From positions 103,883-167,882 of the forward strand of contig PHBD01000006.1 of the NCBI GenBank assembly GCA_002841865.1: a stretch of 64,000 nucleotides of DNA. The letters are read 5' to 3'. Position numbers and translations under genes: made by a program. Source of the stretch: Deltaproteobacteria bacterium HGW-Deltaproteobacteria-19. GTDB lineage: Bacteria; Desulfobacterota; Syntrophia; Syntrophales; PHBD01. Every line of letters starts with the position of its first letter. The first letter of the stretch is position 1. The notes beneath the pieces are model-generated. The model did no database searches, was not told where the DNA came from, and worked only from the letters and a program-made list of their open reading frames with translations. Of this stretch, positions 54 through 43,081 are shown in pieces.

Positions 54-320
54 ATGGCATATCCATCATCGGGAGGCCGGCCGGCCAGGCCGCATAAAAA
101 GTTCTTCCATCGGCGGAAATTCTGCCGTTTCTGTACGGACTCCAATATTCAGATCGATTACAAGAACCCCTCCATCCTGCGGGACTTCGTTACCGAGCGG
201 GGCAAGATCATGCCCAGGAGAATCACCGGGAACTGTGCCGGACACCAGCGCGAGTTGACGGTGGCCATCAAGCGGGCCCGGACCCTGGCTCTTCTACCGT
301 TTGCAGTTCGAGAGGGCTGA
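54..320 (+). CDS. rpsR: 30S ribosomal protein S18
   Basis: This 88-residue small-subunit protein binds with S6 to the platform of the 30S subunit. The core [15 protein letters not shown] followed by [18 protein letters not shown] is diagnostic for S18. Cys24, Cys27, Cys61 and His64 form a CxxC...CxxH set, so this is the zinc-ligand-bearing form of S18 rather than the Cys-free form. A basic N-terminal arm precedes the core. The ATG is 7 nt after the GGGGGAG that overlaps the end of rpsF, implying translational coupling. It is the first complete gene of the rpsF-rpsR-DUF2232-rplI-dnaB operon. Confidence 0.97.
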
Positions 321-35245: not shown

Positions 35246-36301
35246 TCAGCGCGGTCCGGAGCGTCCACCCGGTCCCTTACCGATCTGCCGGCCCAGCAGG
35301 ATCAGGTCCTCCCGCAGGCGGGCCAGAAGAACATCCCCGTCCGGCACGGCGGCCTTTCCGGGATAGATGTCGTAACGGGCTCGCAGGGATTCGGGGGTGA
35401 AATCGGGCATGACGACGTTGGCCCCTGCCCGGAGCGCCCGGATCCGGCCTTCCGGATGAAGGGTCCCCAGGGCCGTCGTAGCGGGGATGTTGGTATTCCG
35501 GGTCAGGAGGCGGGCCAGGGCCAGGACCCGGAGCGTCCCTGCCAGGTCGCCACCCGGCTCGTCGGCAAGGGGTGTCCCCGGGTGGGGAATGAAAGGGCCG
35601 ATCCCCAGCATGTCCGCATCCAGGGACCGCATCAGGAGAAGATCCTCCGCCAGGATCTCCGGTGTCTGTCCGGGGAGGCCCACCATGTTCCCCGTTCCGA
35701 CCTCGTAACCCAGGTCCCGGAGGTCCTTCAGGCATCGAAGGCGGTCCTCCAGGGTGCATCCTGGCCGAAGCCGCCGGTAGAGGTCCGGAGAGGCCGTCTC
35801 GTGCTTGAGGAGATACCGGTCCGCTCCGGCCTCGCGGAAGGCCCGGTAGTCCTCCCGGGGCCGCTCACCCACCGAGAGCGTCACGATCAGGCCCGTCTCG
35901 TCCTTGATCCGACCGACGATGCGGCACAGGTCGCCACGGGTGTATGCGGGATCCTCGCCGGACTGAAGGACAACCGTGCCGATCCCCTTGTCCCGGATCC
36001 CGTGGACGGCGGCGAGGACGGCGTCCTCGTCCATCCGGTAGCGCACGACGTCCCGGTTGTCCCGGCGGAGGCCGCAGTAGAGGCAGTTCTGCCGGCAGAA
36101 GTTGGAGAACTCGACGATTCCACGGAGATGCACGGCATCGCCCACGTATTCCCGCCGGGCCGAATTGGCCGCCGTCTCGAGCGCCCCTAGTGATGCTTCG
36201 TCCGAGAGCGACAGAAGAAAGGCCAGGTCTTCCCGGGAGAGATCCTCCCCCCGGTGGGCGGCGTCGATCAGCCTGCCGATCCGGTCCGGCGTCTCAGACA
36301 T
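35246..36301 (-). CDS. hydE: [FeFe]-hydrogenase maturase HydE
   Basis: HydE is a radical SAM enzyme that processes the HydG product on the way to the diiron subcluster of the H-cluster. The motif CRQNCLYC places Cys69, Cys73 and Cys76; GNMVGLPGQTPE, GIGPFIPHPGTP and the C-terminal DFTPESLRARYDIYPGK match the family. The 351-residue length is typical. Its start overlaps the end of hydG by 8 nt. It is the last gene of the regulator-hydG-hydE unit. Confidence 0.95.
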   Translation of the reverse strand: MSETPDRIGRLIDAAHRGEDLSREDLAFLLSLSDEASLGALETAANSARREYVGDAVHLRGIVEFSNFCRQNCLYCGLRRDNRDVVRYRMDEDAVLAAVHGIRDKGIGTVVLQSGEDPAYTRGDLCRIVGRIKDETGLIVTLSVGERPREDYRAFREAGADRYLLKHETASPDLYRRLRPGCTLEDRLRCLKDLRDLGYEVGTGNMVGLPGQTPEILAEDLLLMRSLDADMLGIGPFIPHPGTPLADEPGGDLAGTLRVLALARLLTRNTNIPATTALGTLHPEGRIRALRAGANVVMPDFTPESLRARYDIYPGKAAVPDGDVLLARLREDLILLGRQIGKGPGGRSGPR

Positions 36302-37691
36302 AGAGATCCCGCTGGCCTTCCTCGATCTTCCGCAGGCGCTTCTGCAGGTTATCCCGCTGGCGGGCGCTTTTCGTCTCCGCCAGGAGGCGGTCGATCAGGG
36401 CATAGCCCACGGCCTTCGCCTCCGGAGATGCATAGTCCTCCAGGTATTCCTTGTAGGTGAGGATGGCATTGGTGCGGCAGAACTTCTGGATCAGCCCCGG
36501 TTTCGCCAGATCCATGAAATCCGCGCCCGTCCGGCCGAGGCGGTAGCAGGCGGTGCAGAAGCTGGGAATATGCCCGTGGGTGCTGATGTCGAGGATCACC
36601 TCGTCGAGGGTCCGCGTGTCCCCCAGGTTGAACTGAGCCGCCCGGAATCCCTCGCTGGTGTCCTCCCGGTAGCCCCCTGGATTTGTCCGGGAACCGGCGC
36701 TGATCTGGGAAATCCCCAGGTCGAAAACCTCGCTCCGGAGGGCCGCCGTCTCGCGGGTGGAGAGGATCATGCCCGTGTAGGGGACGGCCATGCGGATCAC
36801 CGCTACGAGTTTCTTGAACTCCTCGTCGGAGACCGGATGGGGCGGCTTGATGGCCGCCGGCGCGTTGAGGGCCGGCTCCAGCCGTGGAATCGAGATGGTG
36901 TGAGGGCCCACGCCGCAGTCCCGCTCGAGCTGCAGAGCGTGGAAAAGGAGCCCCAGGACCTCGAACTTGTAGTCGTAAAGACCGAAGAGGGCCCCGATCC
37001 CCACATCGTCGATGCCGCCCTCCTGGGCCCGGTGCATCGCCGTCAGCCGCCGGACATAGTCCTTCTTGGGACCGCTGGGGTGCATCTTGCCATATGTCCC
37101 GTGATGGTAGGTTTCCTGAAACAGGACGTAGGTTCCGATCTTCGCCGCCTTGAGCCGCCGGAACTCCTCGACTTCCAGCGGGGCGATCTCCACGTTGATC
37201 CGTCGGATCTCTCCGCCCTTCTCCGTCTTCACGGAATAGGCCGTTTCGATGGCCTCAACGAAGTAGTCCAGGCTGGACCGGCCGGGGTGCTCGCCGCAGA
37301 GCATCAGGAGCCGCTTGTGCCCCTCCCGCTCCAGGACGCTCACTTCGCTTGCGATCTGCTCCAGGGAGAGGGCCACGCGCTTGAGGTCCTTGTTGTCCTT
37401 GCGGAATCCGCAGTAGAGGCAGTTGTTGCTGCAGAAGTTCGCGATGTAGAGGGGTGCGAAAAGAACCAGGCGGTTCCCGTAGATGTCCCGCTTGATCTGC
37501 CGGGCCGTCCGCCCGATCTCTGCCAGGAGCTCCGGGTCTTCCGTCTGCAGGAGAACGGCCGTTTCCTCCGGCGTCAGGCCTTGCAGCTTCTTCGCCTTTT
37601 CAATCAATTCCTCAACCCGCTGACGGGACGGGTTCTTCGATTCGGTGAGCAGTCGCTCGATCTTTCCGTCGTCGATGAAATCTGTGATCAT
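36294..37691 (-). CDS. hydG: [FeFe]-hydrogenase maturase HydG (tyrosine lyase)
   Basis: HydG is a radical SAM enzyme that cleaves tyrosine to make the CO and cyanide ligands of the H-cluster. The N-terminal cluster motif CSNNCLYC gives Cys87, Cys91 and Cys94. The auxiliary-cluster motif CTACYRLGRTG and a later KFC near the C terminus are what separate HydG from ThiH. The length is 465 residues. ATG 37691 starts the conserved domain; the frame remains open further upstream through the regulator gene, but that part is Pro/Arg-rich and out of keeping with the family. It follows the regulator by 14 nt. Confidence 0.96.
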   Translation of the reverse strand: MITDFIDDGKIERLLTESKNPSRQRVEELIEKAKKLQGLTPEETAVLLQTEDPELLAEIGRTARQIKRDIYGNRLVLFAPLYIANFCSNNCLYCGFRKDNKDLKRVALSLEQIASEVSVLEREGHKRLLMLCGEHPGRSSLDYFVEAIETAYSVKTEKGGEIRRINVEIAPLEVEEFRRLKAAKIGTYVLFQETYHHGTYGKMHPSGPKKDYVRRLTAMHRAQEGGIDDVGIGALFGLYDYKFEVLGLLFHALQLERDCGVGPHTISIPRLEPALNAPAAIKPPHPVSDEEFKKLVAVIRMAVPYTGMILSTRETAALRSEVFDLGISQISAGSRTNPGGYREDTSEGFRAAQFNLGDTRTLDEVILDISTHGHIPSFCTACYRLGRTGADFMDLAKPGLIQKFCRTNAILTYKEYLEDYASPEAKAVGYALIDRLLAETKSARQRDNLQKRLRKIEEGQRDLYV

Positions 37692-37705: not shown

Positions 37706-37954
37706 CTATGCTTTGGTCAGGGCCGACTTCACCTGCACTCCCTCCAGGGCGCCCAGCTTTCCCGTGAGGGAGCCGATCTCGTCGGTCGTGGCATGAACGA
37801 TCAGGGAGATGATGTGGAGGCCCTTGGGCGGGTAGGGCAGTCCCATCCTGCCGATGACGGCCTCGCCGTGCTCGCTCAGGATGGCGTTGATCCGGTTGGC
37901 CTGGTCGGCCCGGTTCGTGATGATGATGGTGATGGTTCCGATGCGGCGGTGCAT
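37706..37954 (-). CDS. TM1266-type iron-only hydrogenase system regulator
   Basis: This 82-residue protein has an ACT/ferredoxin-like alpha-beta fold (RRIGTITIIITNRADQANRI, HIISLIVHATTDEI). Family members are found almost only beside hydE/hydF/hydG and are named putative iron-only hydrogenase regulators; the mechanism is not established. AAAGGAAG (37961-37968) lies ahead of ATG 37954. A complete terminator sits only 21 nt upstream of the start codon, so its expression depends on readthrough of the leader at 37975-38120. Confidence 0.9.
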   Translation of the reverse strand: MHRRIGTITIIITNRADQANRINAILSEHGEAVIGRMGLPYPPKGLHIISLIVHATTDEIGSLTGKLGALEGVQVKSALTKA

Positions 37955-37974: not shown

Positions 37975-38012
37975 AAAAAAAAGAGGTCAGCTCCTGAAGG
38001 GAGCAGACCTCT
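37975..38012 (-). terminator. Attenuator terminator in the hyd leader
   Basis: On the minus strand AGAGGTC-T-GCTCC and GGAGC-T-GACCTCT (arms 38000-38012 and 37982-37994) form a 12-bp stem with one mismatch and a CTTCA loop, followed by eight T residues (37975-37982). It lies upstream of the regulator gene, not after a gene. The 5' arm (38006-38011) can pair instead with 38038-38043. Confidence 0.9.
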
Positions 38013-38120
38013 CGCGATGGCTCGTTGTGCTCCCCTCGAGGTCAGACGGCGTCCTTCCTCTCAGGACCGGCCGGATCAACCGGCCGCCGGCTATTCATCA
38101 CAGATCGGCGGGAATGTCAA
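37975..38120 (-). promoter_or_regulatory. Structured leader RNA with anti-terminator, upstream of the hyd regulator-hydG-hydE unit
   Basis: A promoter (TTGACA 38115-38120, 17 nt, TGAATA 38092-38097) is followed by three adjoining helices: P1 CGGC/GCCG (38086-38089 with 38047-38050), P2 GGCCGG/CCGGCC (38080-38085 with 38069-38074), and P3 GTCCT/AGGAC (38063-38067 with 38051-38055). GACCTC (38038-38043) can then pair with GAGGTC (38006-38011), which is also the 5' arm of the terminator, so the two structures exclude each other. If the named promoter is used, transcription would start near 38085 and P1 would form only in readthrough from hydF. I could not match it to a known riboswitch class. 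Confidence 0.7.
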
Positions 38121-38195
38121 CGGTTATGTTGAAAATGGCATACATCTCGAACCTCGATATTCCGTGATCGCGGGGTTCTTCGCTGCAGCCCGGTC

Positions 38196-39443
38196 TCAGG
38201 GGGCCGCGGCGGCCCGATCATAGGCCAGGAGTGCCGAGGGGAAGGGCGTCAGGACCCGGCGGATGACCCCCTGGGTGTAGGAGATGGCCAGGCCGTAGTT
38301 CGTGATCGGGACGCCGGCCTCGTGGGCCTTGTGGAGACGGCTCAGCATCTCACGGCGGTTCAGCATGCAGGCGCCGCAGTGGATGACGAGCCGGTATTTG
38401 GAAAGATCCTGCGGATAGTCCCGTCCCGCCGAGACGTCCACCGCCAGCTCGCCGCCGACATACTGCCGGAGCCAGCGGGGGATCTTGACCCGGCCGATGT
38501 CGTCCTGGAGAGGATGGTGGGAGCAGGCCTCGGCGATGAGGACCGGATCCCCCGGGCGGAGGCGTTCGATGGCGGCCACTCCGGCGGCGGCCGTGGACAG
38601 GTCGCCTTTCTGGCGGGCCATGAGGATGGAGAAGGTCGTCAAGGGGACTGATGCCGGCGTGTCGCCGGAGACCTTGAGGATTGCCTGGGAGTCCGTCACC
38701 ACCAGGTCCGGCGGGCGGGACAGACGGGCCAGCATGGCCGCCAGCTCCCGCTCTTTCACCATCAGGGCCGCGGCGTCACTGTCCAGGGCGTCGCGGATTG
38801 TCTGGACCTGCGGCAGGATCAGCCGTCCCTTGGGGGCCTGTAGGTCGATGGGCACCACCAGCACGGCCAGGCCGCCCGGGGGCAGGAGGTCTCCCACCAG
38901 GGGCGGCGGCTCCAGGAAGTGATCCGGCGCCGTCTCCAGGAGGTGCCGCTTCACCGCCTCCAGGGCCGCTTCCCGGCCCGCCCCGTCCGTGCTGGAGACG
39001 GCCAGGACCCGCCCGGCCTTCTCCCGGAGCGAGGCGAGGAACGCCTCCGACGGTGCGCAGAGATCCGTCTTGTTCACCACCGGGATGACGGGGATCTTGT
39101 GGGCCTTCGCTTCCCCGAGCAGGTTATCCTCGAAGTCCGTCCATGCCTCCGCTTCCGTGACGAGGAGGATCGCGTCGGCCCGGTCGAGGATCCGCCGGGT
39201 CTTCTCCAGCCGCTTTGCCGACAGTTCCGTGATGTCGTCCAGGCCCGCCGTGTCGAGGAACAGGACGGGGCCGAGGGGCAAAAGCTCCGCCGCCTTCTCC
39301 ACCACGTCCGTCGTCGTTCCCGCCACGGGGGAGGTAATGGCCACCTCCTGGCCCAGCAGGTAGTTGAGGAGGCTCGACTTGCCCACGTTCGTGCGGCCGA
39401 AAAGGGCCACGTGAAGGCGGTTTCCCTTGGGGGTGGCGTCCAT
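38196..39443 (-). CDS. hydF: [FeFe]-hydrogenase maturation GTPase HydF
   Basis: HydF is the GTPase scaffold that carries the diiron precursor and delivers it to HydA. The GTPase domain has GRTNVGKS (16-23), DTAGLDD and NKTDLC. The C-terminal [4Fe-4S] site is given by AEACSHHPLQDD and HCGACMLNRREM. A central dimerisation domain follows the GTPase domain. The length (415 residues) is normal. It lies 2 nt after the aspA stop, so the two share a transcript. Confidence 0.95.
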   Translation of the reverse strand: MDATPKGNRLHVALFGRTNVGKSSLLNYLLGQEVAITSPVAGTTTDVVEKAAELLPLGPVLFLDTAGLDDITELSAKRLEKTRRILDRADAILLVTEAEAWTDFEDNLLGEAKAHKIPVIPVVNKTDLCAPSEAFLASLREKAGRVLAVSSTDGAGREAALEAVKRHLLETAPDHFLEPPPLVGDLLPPGGLAVLVVPIDLQAPKGRLILPQVQTIRDALDSDAAALMVKERELAAMLARLSRPPDLVVTDSQAILKVSGDTPASVPLTTFSILMARQKGDLSTAAAGVAAIERLRPGDPVLIAEACSHHPLQDDIGRVKIPRWLRQYVGGELAVDVSAGRDYPQDLSKYRLVIHCGACMLNRREMLSRLHKAHEAGVPITNYGLAISYTQGVIRRVLTPFPSALLAYDRAAAAP

Positions 39444-39445
39444 GG

Positions 39446-40846
39446 TCAGTTCTCTTTCCGGTATCCCAGGGCGGTGAGCGACCAGGGCGACAGGACCCGG
39501 TCGATCATCTCTTTTCCCAGTTTTTCCTCCAGGAAGGCCCGCATCGTCCGGCTCTCCGAAAGGCCCTGCCTCTCCAGTTCACGGTATTCCCGGATCAGCT
39601 CCGTGGCGCGCTCGTAGCCCAGGTGGGGCACCAGGGCCGTCACCAGCATGGGGCTCCGGTCGAAGGCCCTCCGGCAGGCCTCTTCATCCGCTTCAATGCC
39701 CCGGACGTGCTCCGCCAGGAGCGCATCGGCCCGCGCCAGGAGGTCCAGCGACTCCAGGAAGGCGTCCGCCGCCAGGGGCAGGAATTCACTGATCTGGCCG
39801 GTGCCTCGGCTCAGGGCGTCGGAGACGATCGCGTCGTTGGCGAAGACCTTGAGACCGACCTGGATCGCCGCCTCCGCCAGGACGGGGTTCACCTTGCCCG
39901 GCATGATGGACGAGCCCGCCTGGAGGTCCGGCAGGCGGATCTCTCCGAGAAGGTTCAGGAGGCGCAGGTCTCCGGCGATCTTGACGAGGTTGGCCGCGTG
40001 GGCCTTGAGGACGCCCGACACCTCCACGAAGGCGTCCGCGAAGGCCGTCTCGCCCGTCAGGTTCTCTCCCCGGGAGAGGCCCTGTCCCGTCGTCTCGCGG
40101 AGCTTCTCGATGACCAGGAAGATATAGTCCCGTGGGGCCGCGAGCCCCGTGCCCACGGCGGTTCCGCCGAGATTGACCACCCGTAGCCGCTCTTCCCCCT
40201 TGAAGGTGCGCCAGCGGTCCCGGGAAAGCGCCTCGGCGAAAGCGGCGAACTCCGCCCCCAGCGTCATGGGAACCGCCTCCTGCAGCTCCGTTCGTCCGAC
40301 CTTTACGATGGCGCCGAAGGCCTTTTCCTTCTCCTGGAAGGCCCCCTGGAGGTCCGCCGCGGCCCGGCTCAGGCTCCGCAGGCCGAAGATCCCGGCAACC
40401 TTCACGGCCGTGGGGTAGGTGTCGTTCGTGGACTGGTGGAGATTGACGTGCTCCAGGGGGTGGACAAGGGCGTAGTCGCCCTTCCGGCCCCCCAGGATCT
40501 CGATGGCCCGGTTGGCCAGGACCTCGTTGACGTTCATGTTCGTGGACGTCCCCGCCCCGCCCTGGAGGGCGTCCACGGGGAACTGGCCGGCAAGCCCGCC
40601 CGCCGCGACCTCGTCGCACGCCTGCTCGATGGCCCGGGCCCTCTCCGCATCCAGGTAACCCAGTTCGGCATTGGCCAGGCAGCAGGCCTTCTTGACCAGG
40701 GCGCAGGCCCGGATCAGCCCGGCGTTGACGCTCCTCCCGGAGAGGGGAAAGTTGCGGACCGCCCGGAGGGTGTGGATTCCCCAGTATGCGTCCGCCGGAA
40801 TCTCCAGATCGCCGAGAAGGTCTTTTTCGGTGCGTGTCGGGGTCAT
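39446..40846 (-). CDS. aspA: Aspartate ammonia-lyase
   Basis: Aspartase converts aspartate to fumarate and ammonia. The 466-residue sequence has the superfamily signature GSSIMPGKVNP, the substrate-binding QGGAGTSTNMNVNEVLANRA, HVNLHQSTNDTYPTAV and GRTELQEAVPMTLG. Fumarase C is the main alternative; the E/AYWGIHTLRAVRNFP start and QGGAGTSTNMN favour aspartase. Aspartase-like genes are repeatedly found with hyd maturation genes, where ammonia supply for the dithiomethylamine bridge has been suggested; that role is inference here. The promoter is at 40955-40983. Confidence 0.9.
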   Translation of the reverse strand: MTPTRTEKDLLGDLEIPADAYWGIHTLRAVRNFPLSGRSVNAGLIRACALVKKACCLANAELGYLDAERARAIEQACDEVAAGGLAGQFPVDALQGGAGTSTNMNVNEVLANRAIEILGGRKGDYALVHPLEHVNLHQSTNDTYPTAVKVAGIFGLRSLSRAAADLQGAFQEKEKAFGAIVKVGRTELQEAVPMTLGAEFAAFAEALSRDRWRTFKGEERLRVVNLGGTAVGTGLAAPRDYIFLVIEKLRETTGQGLSRGENLTGETAFADAFVEVSGVLKAHAANLVKIAGDLRLLNLLGEIRLPDLQAGSSIMPGKVNPVLAEAAIQVGLKVFANDAIVSDALSRGTGQISEFLPLAADAFLESLDLLARADALLAEHVRGIEADEEACRRAFDRSPMLVTALVPHLGYERATELIREYRELERQGLSESRTMRAFLEEKLGKEMIDRVLSPWSLTALGYRKEN

Positions 40847-41050: not shown

Positions 41051-43081
41051 CTACCGGTAGATCGGCACGCGCATCCGCTCGATCTTCATCTGCTGCTGGG
41101 CGCCGAAGACGTCCGGGCTGCCGGGCGTGCCGGAGATCCGGTCCCGGTAGCGGGAGATCTTGACGGCGAAGCATGGGTCGGCGCGGAAGGTCCCCATGAT
41201 GCGGTCTTCCGGCACGCCGAGCGTTTTCGCGATCTCCCCCTTCGTGAAGGCGTTCGACCGGAGGGCCTGCCGGTACTCTTCCTCCGATTTGAAAAAGACG
41301 TCGTAGGTGATCGTGTTGATCCCCGCATCCTTTGAGCGCAGGACCTGGATCATGTCGAGGAGCGGCCGGGATTCGACGGGCTCTCCCGAATGCGCCACCG
41401 GCTCGATGGCGTCCACGCTGCGGTCGTCCAGGCTGCCGGGATAGTCCGTGAGGCCGATCGGCGAGTACGCGGGCCGCATCTCCCGGACCGGGCTCCAGTC
41501 CCGGCCGTTTGCTTCGTACAGACGGATTGGGAACAGGTGCTCCCGGATCGCCTCCTCATTGTTCCAGAGGTGAAAGACGCTCCAGGCATAGCTGTCGGCT
41601 CCTTCCAGGCGGAGGAAGGACGGACGGCCCGGATCGAGGTATGCCTCCGCCTGCTTCAGGTCCTCTTCGTGCCGCCTTGCGGCCTCTTCGGCGGTCTCCG
41701 CAACGGTCTCCAGGAACAGCAGCGGATGCTCCGGGCCGGCGATGATGAAATCGACGGTGCATCCGGCATAGATGTCCGGGTACTCCTCCTGGGCGAGGGC
41801 CAGGATCTTCCGGAAAATGTCTTCCCTCTGCTCGATGAAGCGCGGCTCCCTCGTTCCGGCCAGAACAAGGGCGGTGCATGCGCCATCCGCTTCCCGGAAG
41901 ACAACCTCGCTGGGCGACATGGGGAACGCCAGATTGCCCGCCGTCGTGATGCGGCCGGGATACCCGAAGTGCAGCATGAAGCCCTTCAGGACCGTGGAAA
42001 GCGCCTCGACGCCATCCCTGTCGGTTCCGCTGACCTTGAGCAGGATGCCGATCTCCTGTTCTCCCGGGAGGAGGCGGCTTCGCTCCACGGCGTTGAGGCC
42101 GTAGACAAGGTGGCGGTCGAGAAAGGGATCGCTGGAGAGGGCGGCTTCTCCTTTCAGGGGCAGGAAAGAGACCAGCCGCTTCCCGATTTCCCGGCTGCCC
42201 TCGATTTTCACGGTCAGCGGGCTGTGTGCGAAGGCGGCGTTCCGGATCCCGGCGGTCCGGTCGCTGTCGTTGAAATACTCCGTCCGCTGCATGACCAGGA
42301 CGCCCTCGGGGTAATACTGCAGGCAGGGGTGGCTCTCCTCGTACAGCGCGTGGGCGGCGACGGAATAGACCGTGGCCTTCCGCTCGGGGTTCGGGGGGAT
42401 GAAGACGACGCTCCCGTCATCCCGGAACTCCGCGATCAGGTAGTCGCTGGCCGAGCCGGGATCGCAGGCGATGGCGCCACATTCCAGGATGTGGGCCGCC
42501 TGGAAGGCCAGGCCCGGGTCGATCCCGCGCCGGACAGGGTCCGCGGCGAAGATGGACACGTCGCAGGAGCGTCCGCAGAGAACGATCTGCGCCCCCGCGT
42601 CGAGGGCGGTGATGTACGGGGCGATGCCCATCTGGGCGACCAGCCGGCTGTTCCGGACGTCGTCTTCGGCCAGCGCCGGCATGGACCCCAGGGGCCGCAG
42701 CTCGTCGATGCGGCCGATCAGCAGCCCGTTGTCCACGTGCCCGTCCACGACGGCCACCCGGAGGCCCCTCGCGTTCTCCTCCTCGAAGATCTCCCGGATG
42801 AGCTCCAGCATGAAGGCCAGGTGGGGCTCGTCGCCGGCGAGGCCGAGGCTGCCGATGAGGAGCGGACAGTTCATCCGGAGGGCTGCCCGGAGGAGCAGGG
42901 TGAAGTCCCGCTTCAGGGAGGCCGGCTTCATGTAGGATTTCCCCGTCCCCAGGTAATAGGGGCCCGGGTCCATGGAGCCCGCGTCGGCCCCGATGAGATC
43001 GATCTTCATCTTCATGGCTTCTTCCCAGGAGGATTCGGGGCAGCTGTAGCCCAACTTGGATGCCAGGATGCGGTAGCTCAT
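41051..43081 (-). CDS. AtuA-family (DUF1446) protein fused to DUF4387
   Basis: Residues 1 to about 450 match the acyclic terpene utilization AtuA/DUF1446 family (IDLIGADAGSMDPGPYYLG, VVDGHVDNGLLIGRI, GAQIVLCGRSCDVSIFAA). The last hundred residues match DUF4387 (INTITYDVFFKSEEEYRQAL, IMGTFRADPCFAVKISRYRD), which is usually a separate small gene next to AtuA. The 676-residue fusion has no membrane segment. AtuA is needed for citronellol/geraniol breakdown in Pseudomonas, but its reaction is unknown and no other atu or liu gene is nearby, so a role in terpene use is not supported. GGAG precedes ATG 43081. Confidence 0.85.
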   Translation of the reverse strand: MSYRILASKLGYSCPESSWEEAMKMKIDLIGADAGSMDPGPYYLGTGKSYMKPASLKRDFTLLLRAALRMNCPLLIGSLGLAGDEPHLAFMLELIREIFEEENARGLRVAVVDGHVDNGLLIGRIDELRPLGSMPALAEDDVRNSRLVAQMGIAPYITALDAGAQIVLCGRSCDVSIFAADPVRRGIDPGLAFQAAHILECGAIACDPGSASDYLIAEFRDDGSVVFIPPNPERKATVYSVAAHALYEESHPCLQYYPEGVLVMQRTEYFNDSDRTAGIRNAAFAHSPLTVKIEGSREIGKRLVSFLPLKGEAALSSDPFLDRHLVYGLNAVERSRLLPGEQEIGILLKVSGTDRDGVEALSTVLKGFMLHFGYPGRITTAGNLAFPMSPSEVVFREADGACTALVLAGTREPRFIEQREDIFRKILALAQEEYPDIYAGCTVDFIIAGPEHPLLFLETVAETAEEAARRHEEDLKQAEAYLDPGRPSFLRLEGADSYAWSVFHLWNNEEAIREHLFPIRLYEANGRDWSPVREMRPAYSPIGLTDYPGSLDDRSVDAIEPVAHSGEPVESRPLLDMIQVLRSKDAGINTITYDVFFKSEEEYRQALRSNAFTKGEIAKTLGVPEDRIMGTFRADPCFAVKISRYRDRISGTPGSPDVFGAQQQMKIERMRVPIYR

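Follow-up and report, generated by a model that had tools for sequence, protein, structure and literature searches.

The window, that is, the whole stretch of 64,000 nt that was analysed, carries on its minus strand a hyd cluster in the order aspA, hydF, leader, TM1266, hydG and hydE, and all features described below lie on that strand. The first gene (39446-40846) encodes an aspA-type aspartate ammonia-lyase (NF008909, 542.6 bits) and is located upstream of hydF (38196-39443; TIGR03918, 540.8 bits), which in turn precedes the leader. The first gene after the leader is of the TM1266 type (37706-37954, 82 aa; TIGR03959, 107.4 bits against a cut-off of 60.8; PF21699), and is followed by hydG (36294-37658; TIGR03955, 543.7 bits) and hydE (35246-36301; TIGR03956, 341.7 bits). 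The TM1266 family (TIGR03959, PF21699) is annotated as a putative regulator of the iron-only hydrogenase system; the sole structure found, 2NZC, was deposited as a hypothetical protein, and no published function was found for the family in a literature search. Adjoining the hyd cluster, a 676-aa protein in which an AtuA-like part is joined to a DUF4387 domain (41051-43081) has no NCBIfam match.

The 241 nt that separate hydF from TM1266 accommodate, besides a TTGACA promoter element, an intrinsic terminator and a leader of ~110 nt. The -35 box (38116-38121) is a perfect TTGACA, equivalently placed in most relatives, and after a spacer of 18 comes a weak -10-like sequence, approximately TGAATA (38092-38097), assigned from its letters and from the relatives, whose -10 boxes at the equivalent position are better than that of the window. 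The promoter proposed in an earlier sequence-only reading of this DNA has a perfect -35 half, while its -10 half (38097-38092) is weak and was not called by a consensus promoter scan. Judging from the sequence and the relatives, transcription likely starts near 38086.

The terminator stem-loop (37983-38012; -18.7 kcal/mol) is kept in relatives, has a 12-bp stem composed of 7+5 pairs with one mismatch (38012-37983), and is followed by a T8 tract (37975-37982) ending ~20 nt before the TM1266 start codon at 37954, in agreement with the 12 bp, T8 and 21 nt that the sequence-only reading had given. The leader as a whole folds better than 200/200 shuffles (z -4.2). The three adjoining helices of the same reading have to be abandoned, being built in part from promoter bases that precede the likely start at ~38086. 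The conserved core is instead one bulged 33-nt hairpin (38065-38033), outside which lies a predicted, species-specific 5' hairpin, CGGCCGG-loop-CCGGCCG (38068-38086), absent from other relatives.

A covarying 33-nt element upstream of H-cluster genes

The conserved element (38033-38065), present as a single copy in this genome, scores 51.9 and 38.8 bits in the window with models R1 and R2, respectively. It reads CCU(38065-63)-GA-GAGG(38060-57)-A-AGG(38055-53)-loop(38052-47)-UCU(38046-44)-GA-CCUC(38041-38)-GA-GGG(38035-33), and its consensus is CCU-GM-NNNN-R-AGG-loop-YCU-GA-NNNN-RA-GGG. From the base upwards, it consists of a 3-bp helix, an internal loop of the G·A type, a variable helix of 3-5 bp (H2), a second purine internal loop, and an apical helix of 2-3 bp. 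The best predicted fold of the window includes the hairpin 38065-38033, with differences in the apical pairs only.

The pairing of H2 was evaluated in 44 units picked solely by the letters outside H2, a choice that introduces no lean towards structure, and 156 of 176 pairs were found, as opposed to 116.2±4.4 with permuted partners. In shuffle statistics, which are inflated by the relatedness of the sequences, alignment A5 (35 distinct trimmed units) had 96.9% of its cells paired vs 84.5±1.0 and a covariation score of 0.454 vs 0.185±0.018 (0/500 shuffles), and alignment A7 (44 distinct matches, mostly from blind genome scans, but fitted to the model and hence leaning towards structure) had 80 double-changed cells with pairing kept vs 26.6±4.2 and a covariation score of 0.515 vs 0.200±0.018 (0/500 shuffles). 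The leader therefore contains a structured domain with covarying pairs, as expected of an attenuator- or riboswitch-type leader. The check that the sequence-only reading had suggested thus came out in its favour: many genomes have the element ahead of a TM1266-type gene, and the element helix covaries.

No known family accounts for this domain. At gathering score, hits to the 4227 families of Rfam 15 in the window and 17 loci were confined to a tRNA and one unrelated T-box, and a relaxed search (E up to 5) of the window region gave chance-level scores only, in keeping with the sequence-only reading, which had matched the fold to no riboswitch class. Matches to sR30, STnc390, Thr_leader, sR23, ncr1175, NPPA-AS1_3, BTnc201 and PyrR were discarded as falling below their gathering scores. 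A TPP or HMP-PP riboswitch was rejected, since the window yields no match to Rfam up to E 5 and the genes downstream are hyd rather than thi genes. An ANTAR-type antiterminator, made of two hairpins with conserved hexanucleotide loops, was also rejected: here the apical loops vary in length and sequence, and the conserved letters are those of the internal loops. In the literature searched on TM1266, on RNA motifs of hydEFG or hydG, and on leader RNA or antitermination of FeFe hydrogenases, and in papers describing RNA motifs, no such leader was found, an unnamed mention in a 224-motif survey being possible; nor did that literature tell how the genes of H-cluster biosynthesis are regulated. As far as these searches go, the stretch is a real regulatory RNA not described before.

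A search for TM1266-type genes succeeded in 17 of 100 relatives, nearly all of the same order, and in front of nearly all of the well-scoring genes the same leader fills the space from a TTGACA promoter to the start codon. In these relatives, CCUGAGAGRRAGGA is followed by a short spacer, UCUGAYCUYGAGGGRA and then a terminator. In at least four bacterial phyla, Thermodesulfobacteriota, Bacillota, Omnitrophota and Spirochaetota, the element stands ahead of TM1266, hydE, hydG or aspA-hydF operons, and an 80-locus set from named genomes shows its presence in all four. Carriers among the Bacillota, in whose leaders two tandem units are common, include Moorella, Desulfotomaculum-like genera, Pelotomaculum and Geosporobacter. 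It is a widespread and well-defined RNA element that occurs in type strains such as those of Moorella and Thermoanaerobacter.

Whole genomes, ~820 in all, were then scanned with model R2, which covers the 33-nt element only. The places matched, which include a few loci on which R2 was trained, lie before H-cluster maturation genes in 53 of 62 cases, a consistent association with one functional gene set. By phylum, 37 of 299 Bacillota genomes were matched (E 0.05 or better), with 34 of 39 places upstream of TM1266, hydE, hydG or hydF, and places before maturation genes amounted to 12/15 in Desulfobacterota (297 genomes), 6/7 in Omnitrophota (97 genomes) and 1/1 in Spirochaetota (130 genomes). 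Matches inside coding sequence were set aside as chance, both for R1 in the phylum scan (L028, L030, L031, L033) and for R2 (L129, L139, L140, L142, L143, L234, L250, L253, L255, L258).

Several leaders head hydE or hydG in genomes that have TM1266 at another place. In two loci (L054, L036) hydF abuts TM1266, and element and terminator are situated upstream of aspA-hydF-TM1266-hydG; in a third locus (L105) the element likewise precedes aspA, an arrangement present in Tindallia and two Syntrophales. Since it also heads aspA, hydE or hydG operons, the element is not simply a TM1266 leader, and the hyd maturation genes, which the sequence-only reading had named as its target, should be taken to include aspA and operons that start with hydE or hydG. 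Taking into account that aspartate ammonia-lyase supplies the nitrogen of the bridging ligand in vitro (PMC11736057), aspA fits a regulon of the H-cluster pathway. The hyd-aspA operons described in that work (PMC11736057) have the same gene set, whose ammonia-lyase gives the bridging-ligand nitrogen; its text contains neither "regulator" nor "riboswitch", and the leader element is new.

Some contexts deserve separate mention. At a contig end (L233, G802:C106, element 230-263, minus strand), a full tandem leader precedes an apparent ABC-transporter permease fragment, and in a related genome (G755) a near-identical leader is immediately followed by hydE; the transporter may be either a real extra target, which would hint at the ligand, or an assembly join. 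A second transporter context, a weak element-like match directly before an apparent ABC-transporter substrate-binding protein gene (L232, G653:C18:25149-25181), is probably due to chance; genome G653 has neither TM1266 nor hydG matches. In another genome (L231/L168, G663:C16), a tandem element with terminator precedes a gene whose 182-aa product falls into no Pfam family; further on come genes for a MutS-domain-V ATPase and a histidine kinase, and this may be a non-hyd target. Finally, an element with terminator before a C-terminal remnant of hydF, with a ferredoxin-domain hydrogenase-like gene downstream (L029/L247, G166:C12), looks like a decayed maturation operon in which the leader has been retained.

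Alternative pairings and the proposed switch

The element and the terminator are connected by alternative pairings. In the window, the strand GAGGGGAGCA (38037-38028), which overlaps the basal GGG of the element, pairs with UGCUCCCUUC (38005-37996), part of the 5' arm and loop of the terminator, in a duplex of ~ -22 kcal/mol that breaks the basal helix. The pairing originally noticed in the sequence, between the element strand GACCUC (38043-38038) and GAGGUC in the terminator 5' arm (38011-38006), does exist, and is kept in relatives as GAUCUU/AAGGUU; the GAGGGGAGCA/UGCUCCCUUC pairing is the longer and stronger antiterminator of the window. Without the terminator 3' arm, the antiterminator is favoured (-45.6 kcal/mol, vs -35.3 with the element forced), and with this arm in place, the best fold is the one that combines element and terminator.

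This relation is locus-specific. Among 68 leaders with a terminator, the terminator 5' arm with its loop pairs with the element of the same leader at a mean of -16.0 kcal/mol, vs -13.1±0.31 for swapped loci, and none of 5000 permutations reaches the observed mean. Complementarity within the own leader beyond that of the swapped controls implies that element and antiterminator exclude each other; the mutual exclusion of termination and antitermination put forward in the sequence-only reading is in this way supported by computation. The strand used differs between lineages, which counts against the explanation preferred here: in Bacillota the typical antiterminator partner is the 5' strand of the element (CUGCGAAAAGGG with CCUUUUCGCA), and in Syntrophales both element strands and the tail GGGRAG join the pairing. 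In leaders without a terminator, such as those of Thermoanaerobacter hydG, Treponemataceae and L016, the last strand of the element serves as the Shine-Dalgarno region for the first gene; such translation-type leaders precede hydG (L131/L170) or TM1266 (L099 and L016). The existence of both terminator and ribosome-binding-site platforms predicts an OFF state when the element is folded.

Taken together, the stretch likely belongs to a new class of transcription-attenuating leader RNA dedicated to [FeFe]-hydrogenase H-cluster maturation operons, and the element-bearing leader probably shuts H-cluster genes off in response to a signal. According to the proposed mechanism, the 33-nt element would fold soon after being transcribed. 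We infer that the folded element is most likely held by a bound signal, in which case its basal CCU/GGG helix would withhold its strand from the antiterminator, the terminator would form ahead of TM1266, and transcription of TM1266-hydG-hydE would stop. Without such a hold, the strand of the element would pair with the terminator 5' arm and RNA polymerase would read through. In terminator-less relatives, the strand carrying the Shine-Dalgarno of the first gene would confer the same OFF logic at the level of translation.

Candidate signals and rival explanations

As for the signal, binding of the TM1266 protein to its own leader and direct binding of a metabolite appear about equally likely. 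TM1266, alone or with a small effector and acting like PyrR, is narrowly placed first, by analogy and on the basis of three observations. TM1266 is encoded in 36 of 37 element genomes. Among HydG-containing genomes, the element occurs in 35/132 with TM1266 vs 0/25 without (p 0.0013, relatedness ignored), a co-occurrence biased by the training of the model on TM1266 leaders. In L144 and L146 there are two elements per operon, one before TM1266 and the other between TM1266 and hydG; pyr operons can likewise carry more than one attenuator. Against the preferred explanation count the 113 of 149 Bacillota genomes, and a Thermotogota locus (L095), that have TM1266 and no detectable element, as well as the weak -10 box of the window.

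The likeness to PyrR attenuators (RF00515) resides in a hairpin that is small, bulged and rich in purines and that promotes the terminator when it folds, and in the regulator gene being often first in the operon. Unlike them, the hyd element has no Rfam match, controls H-cluster genes and has only a candidate binding protein. The PyrR site model had no match in the window and reached at best 21.1 bits elsewhere (L090), vs a gathering score of 54, and the element stands before hyd, not pyr, genes.

That the element is a true riboswitch, binding a small molecule directly with no need for a protein, is quite possible, at somewhat less than an even chance; the ligand could be, for example, an Fe-CO-CN intermediate, another product of HydG, HydE or HydF, SAM, ammonium or another pathway metabolite. 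Its small, aptamer-like form, in which conserved purines of the internal loops surround a free helix, the tandem copies in many Bacillota leaders, the two expression platforms and the maturation genes as sole targets are all typical of riboswitch classes, and the regulon includes aspA, a potential source of bridge-ligand nitrogen (PMC11736057). A compact conserved domain, tandem copies, two platforms and a coherent regulon are also shared with HMP-PP/thiS (PMC6478431) or tandem-aptamer riboswitches, classes that use terminator and ribosome-binding-site platforms; the element matches no Rfam class. Counting against a protein-independent aptamer are the presence of TM1266 in nearly all element genomes and the lack of any match in the 25 HydG-containing genomes devoid of it. 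The element resembles PyrR attenuation or an OFF riboswitch in its working and is a member of neither known set. It may, though with clearly less than an even chance, be a riboswitch-like class that directly senses an H-cluster assembly intermediate, possibly an organometallic Fe-CO-CN synthon, or have as its receptor TM1266 acting as a new type of RNA-binding metabolite sensor. With the element at hand, the sensing by cells of their need for H-cluster assembly becomes testable by standard RNA biochemistry, and TM1266 gains a concrete candidate role.

Since the regulated state is not given by folding energies alone, an ON switch has to be considered, in which the signal acts by disrupting the element or by stabilising the antiterminator, so that binding turns the genes on. 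The antiterminator pairing is conserved as well; however, what is conserved and covaries is the structure that goes together with termination, and translation-type leaders use the folded element to sequester the ribosome-binding site, which makes this direction improbable.

Attenuation by a leader peptide, in which ribosome stalling on a short ORF would govern the terminator, is very unlikely. An ATG does occur a few nucleotides past the GGGGAGG of the element in some Bacillota leaders, but the window leader has none from 38086 to the terminator, loop lengths vary by non-multiples of three, and the covariation is structural, with no shared peptide: reading by eye of the leaders of the window and its relatives revealed no conserved short ORF. 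The short ATG-started ORFs just past GGGGAGG in L098, L108, L150, L161 and L166 are not conserved in sequence and may be no more than a consequence of the strand being rich in G.

The notion of an ordinary hydF terminator devoid of regulatory role, suggested by its position downstream of hydF in the window, is scarcely credible and already contradicted by the conservation data, as ~185 nt separate it from the hydF stop, with a promoter in between, and 20 nt from the gene that follows, and it accompanies the element before TM1266, hydE, hydG or aspA regardless of the upstream gene.
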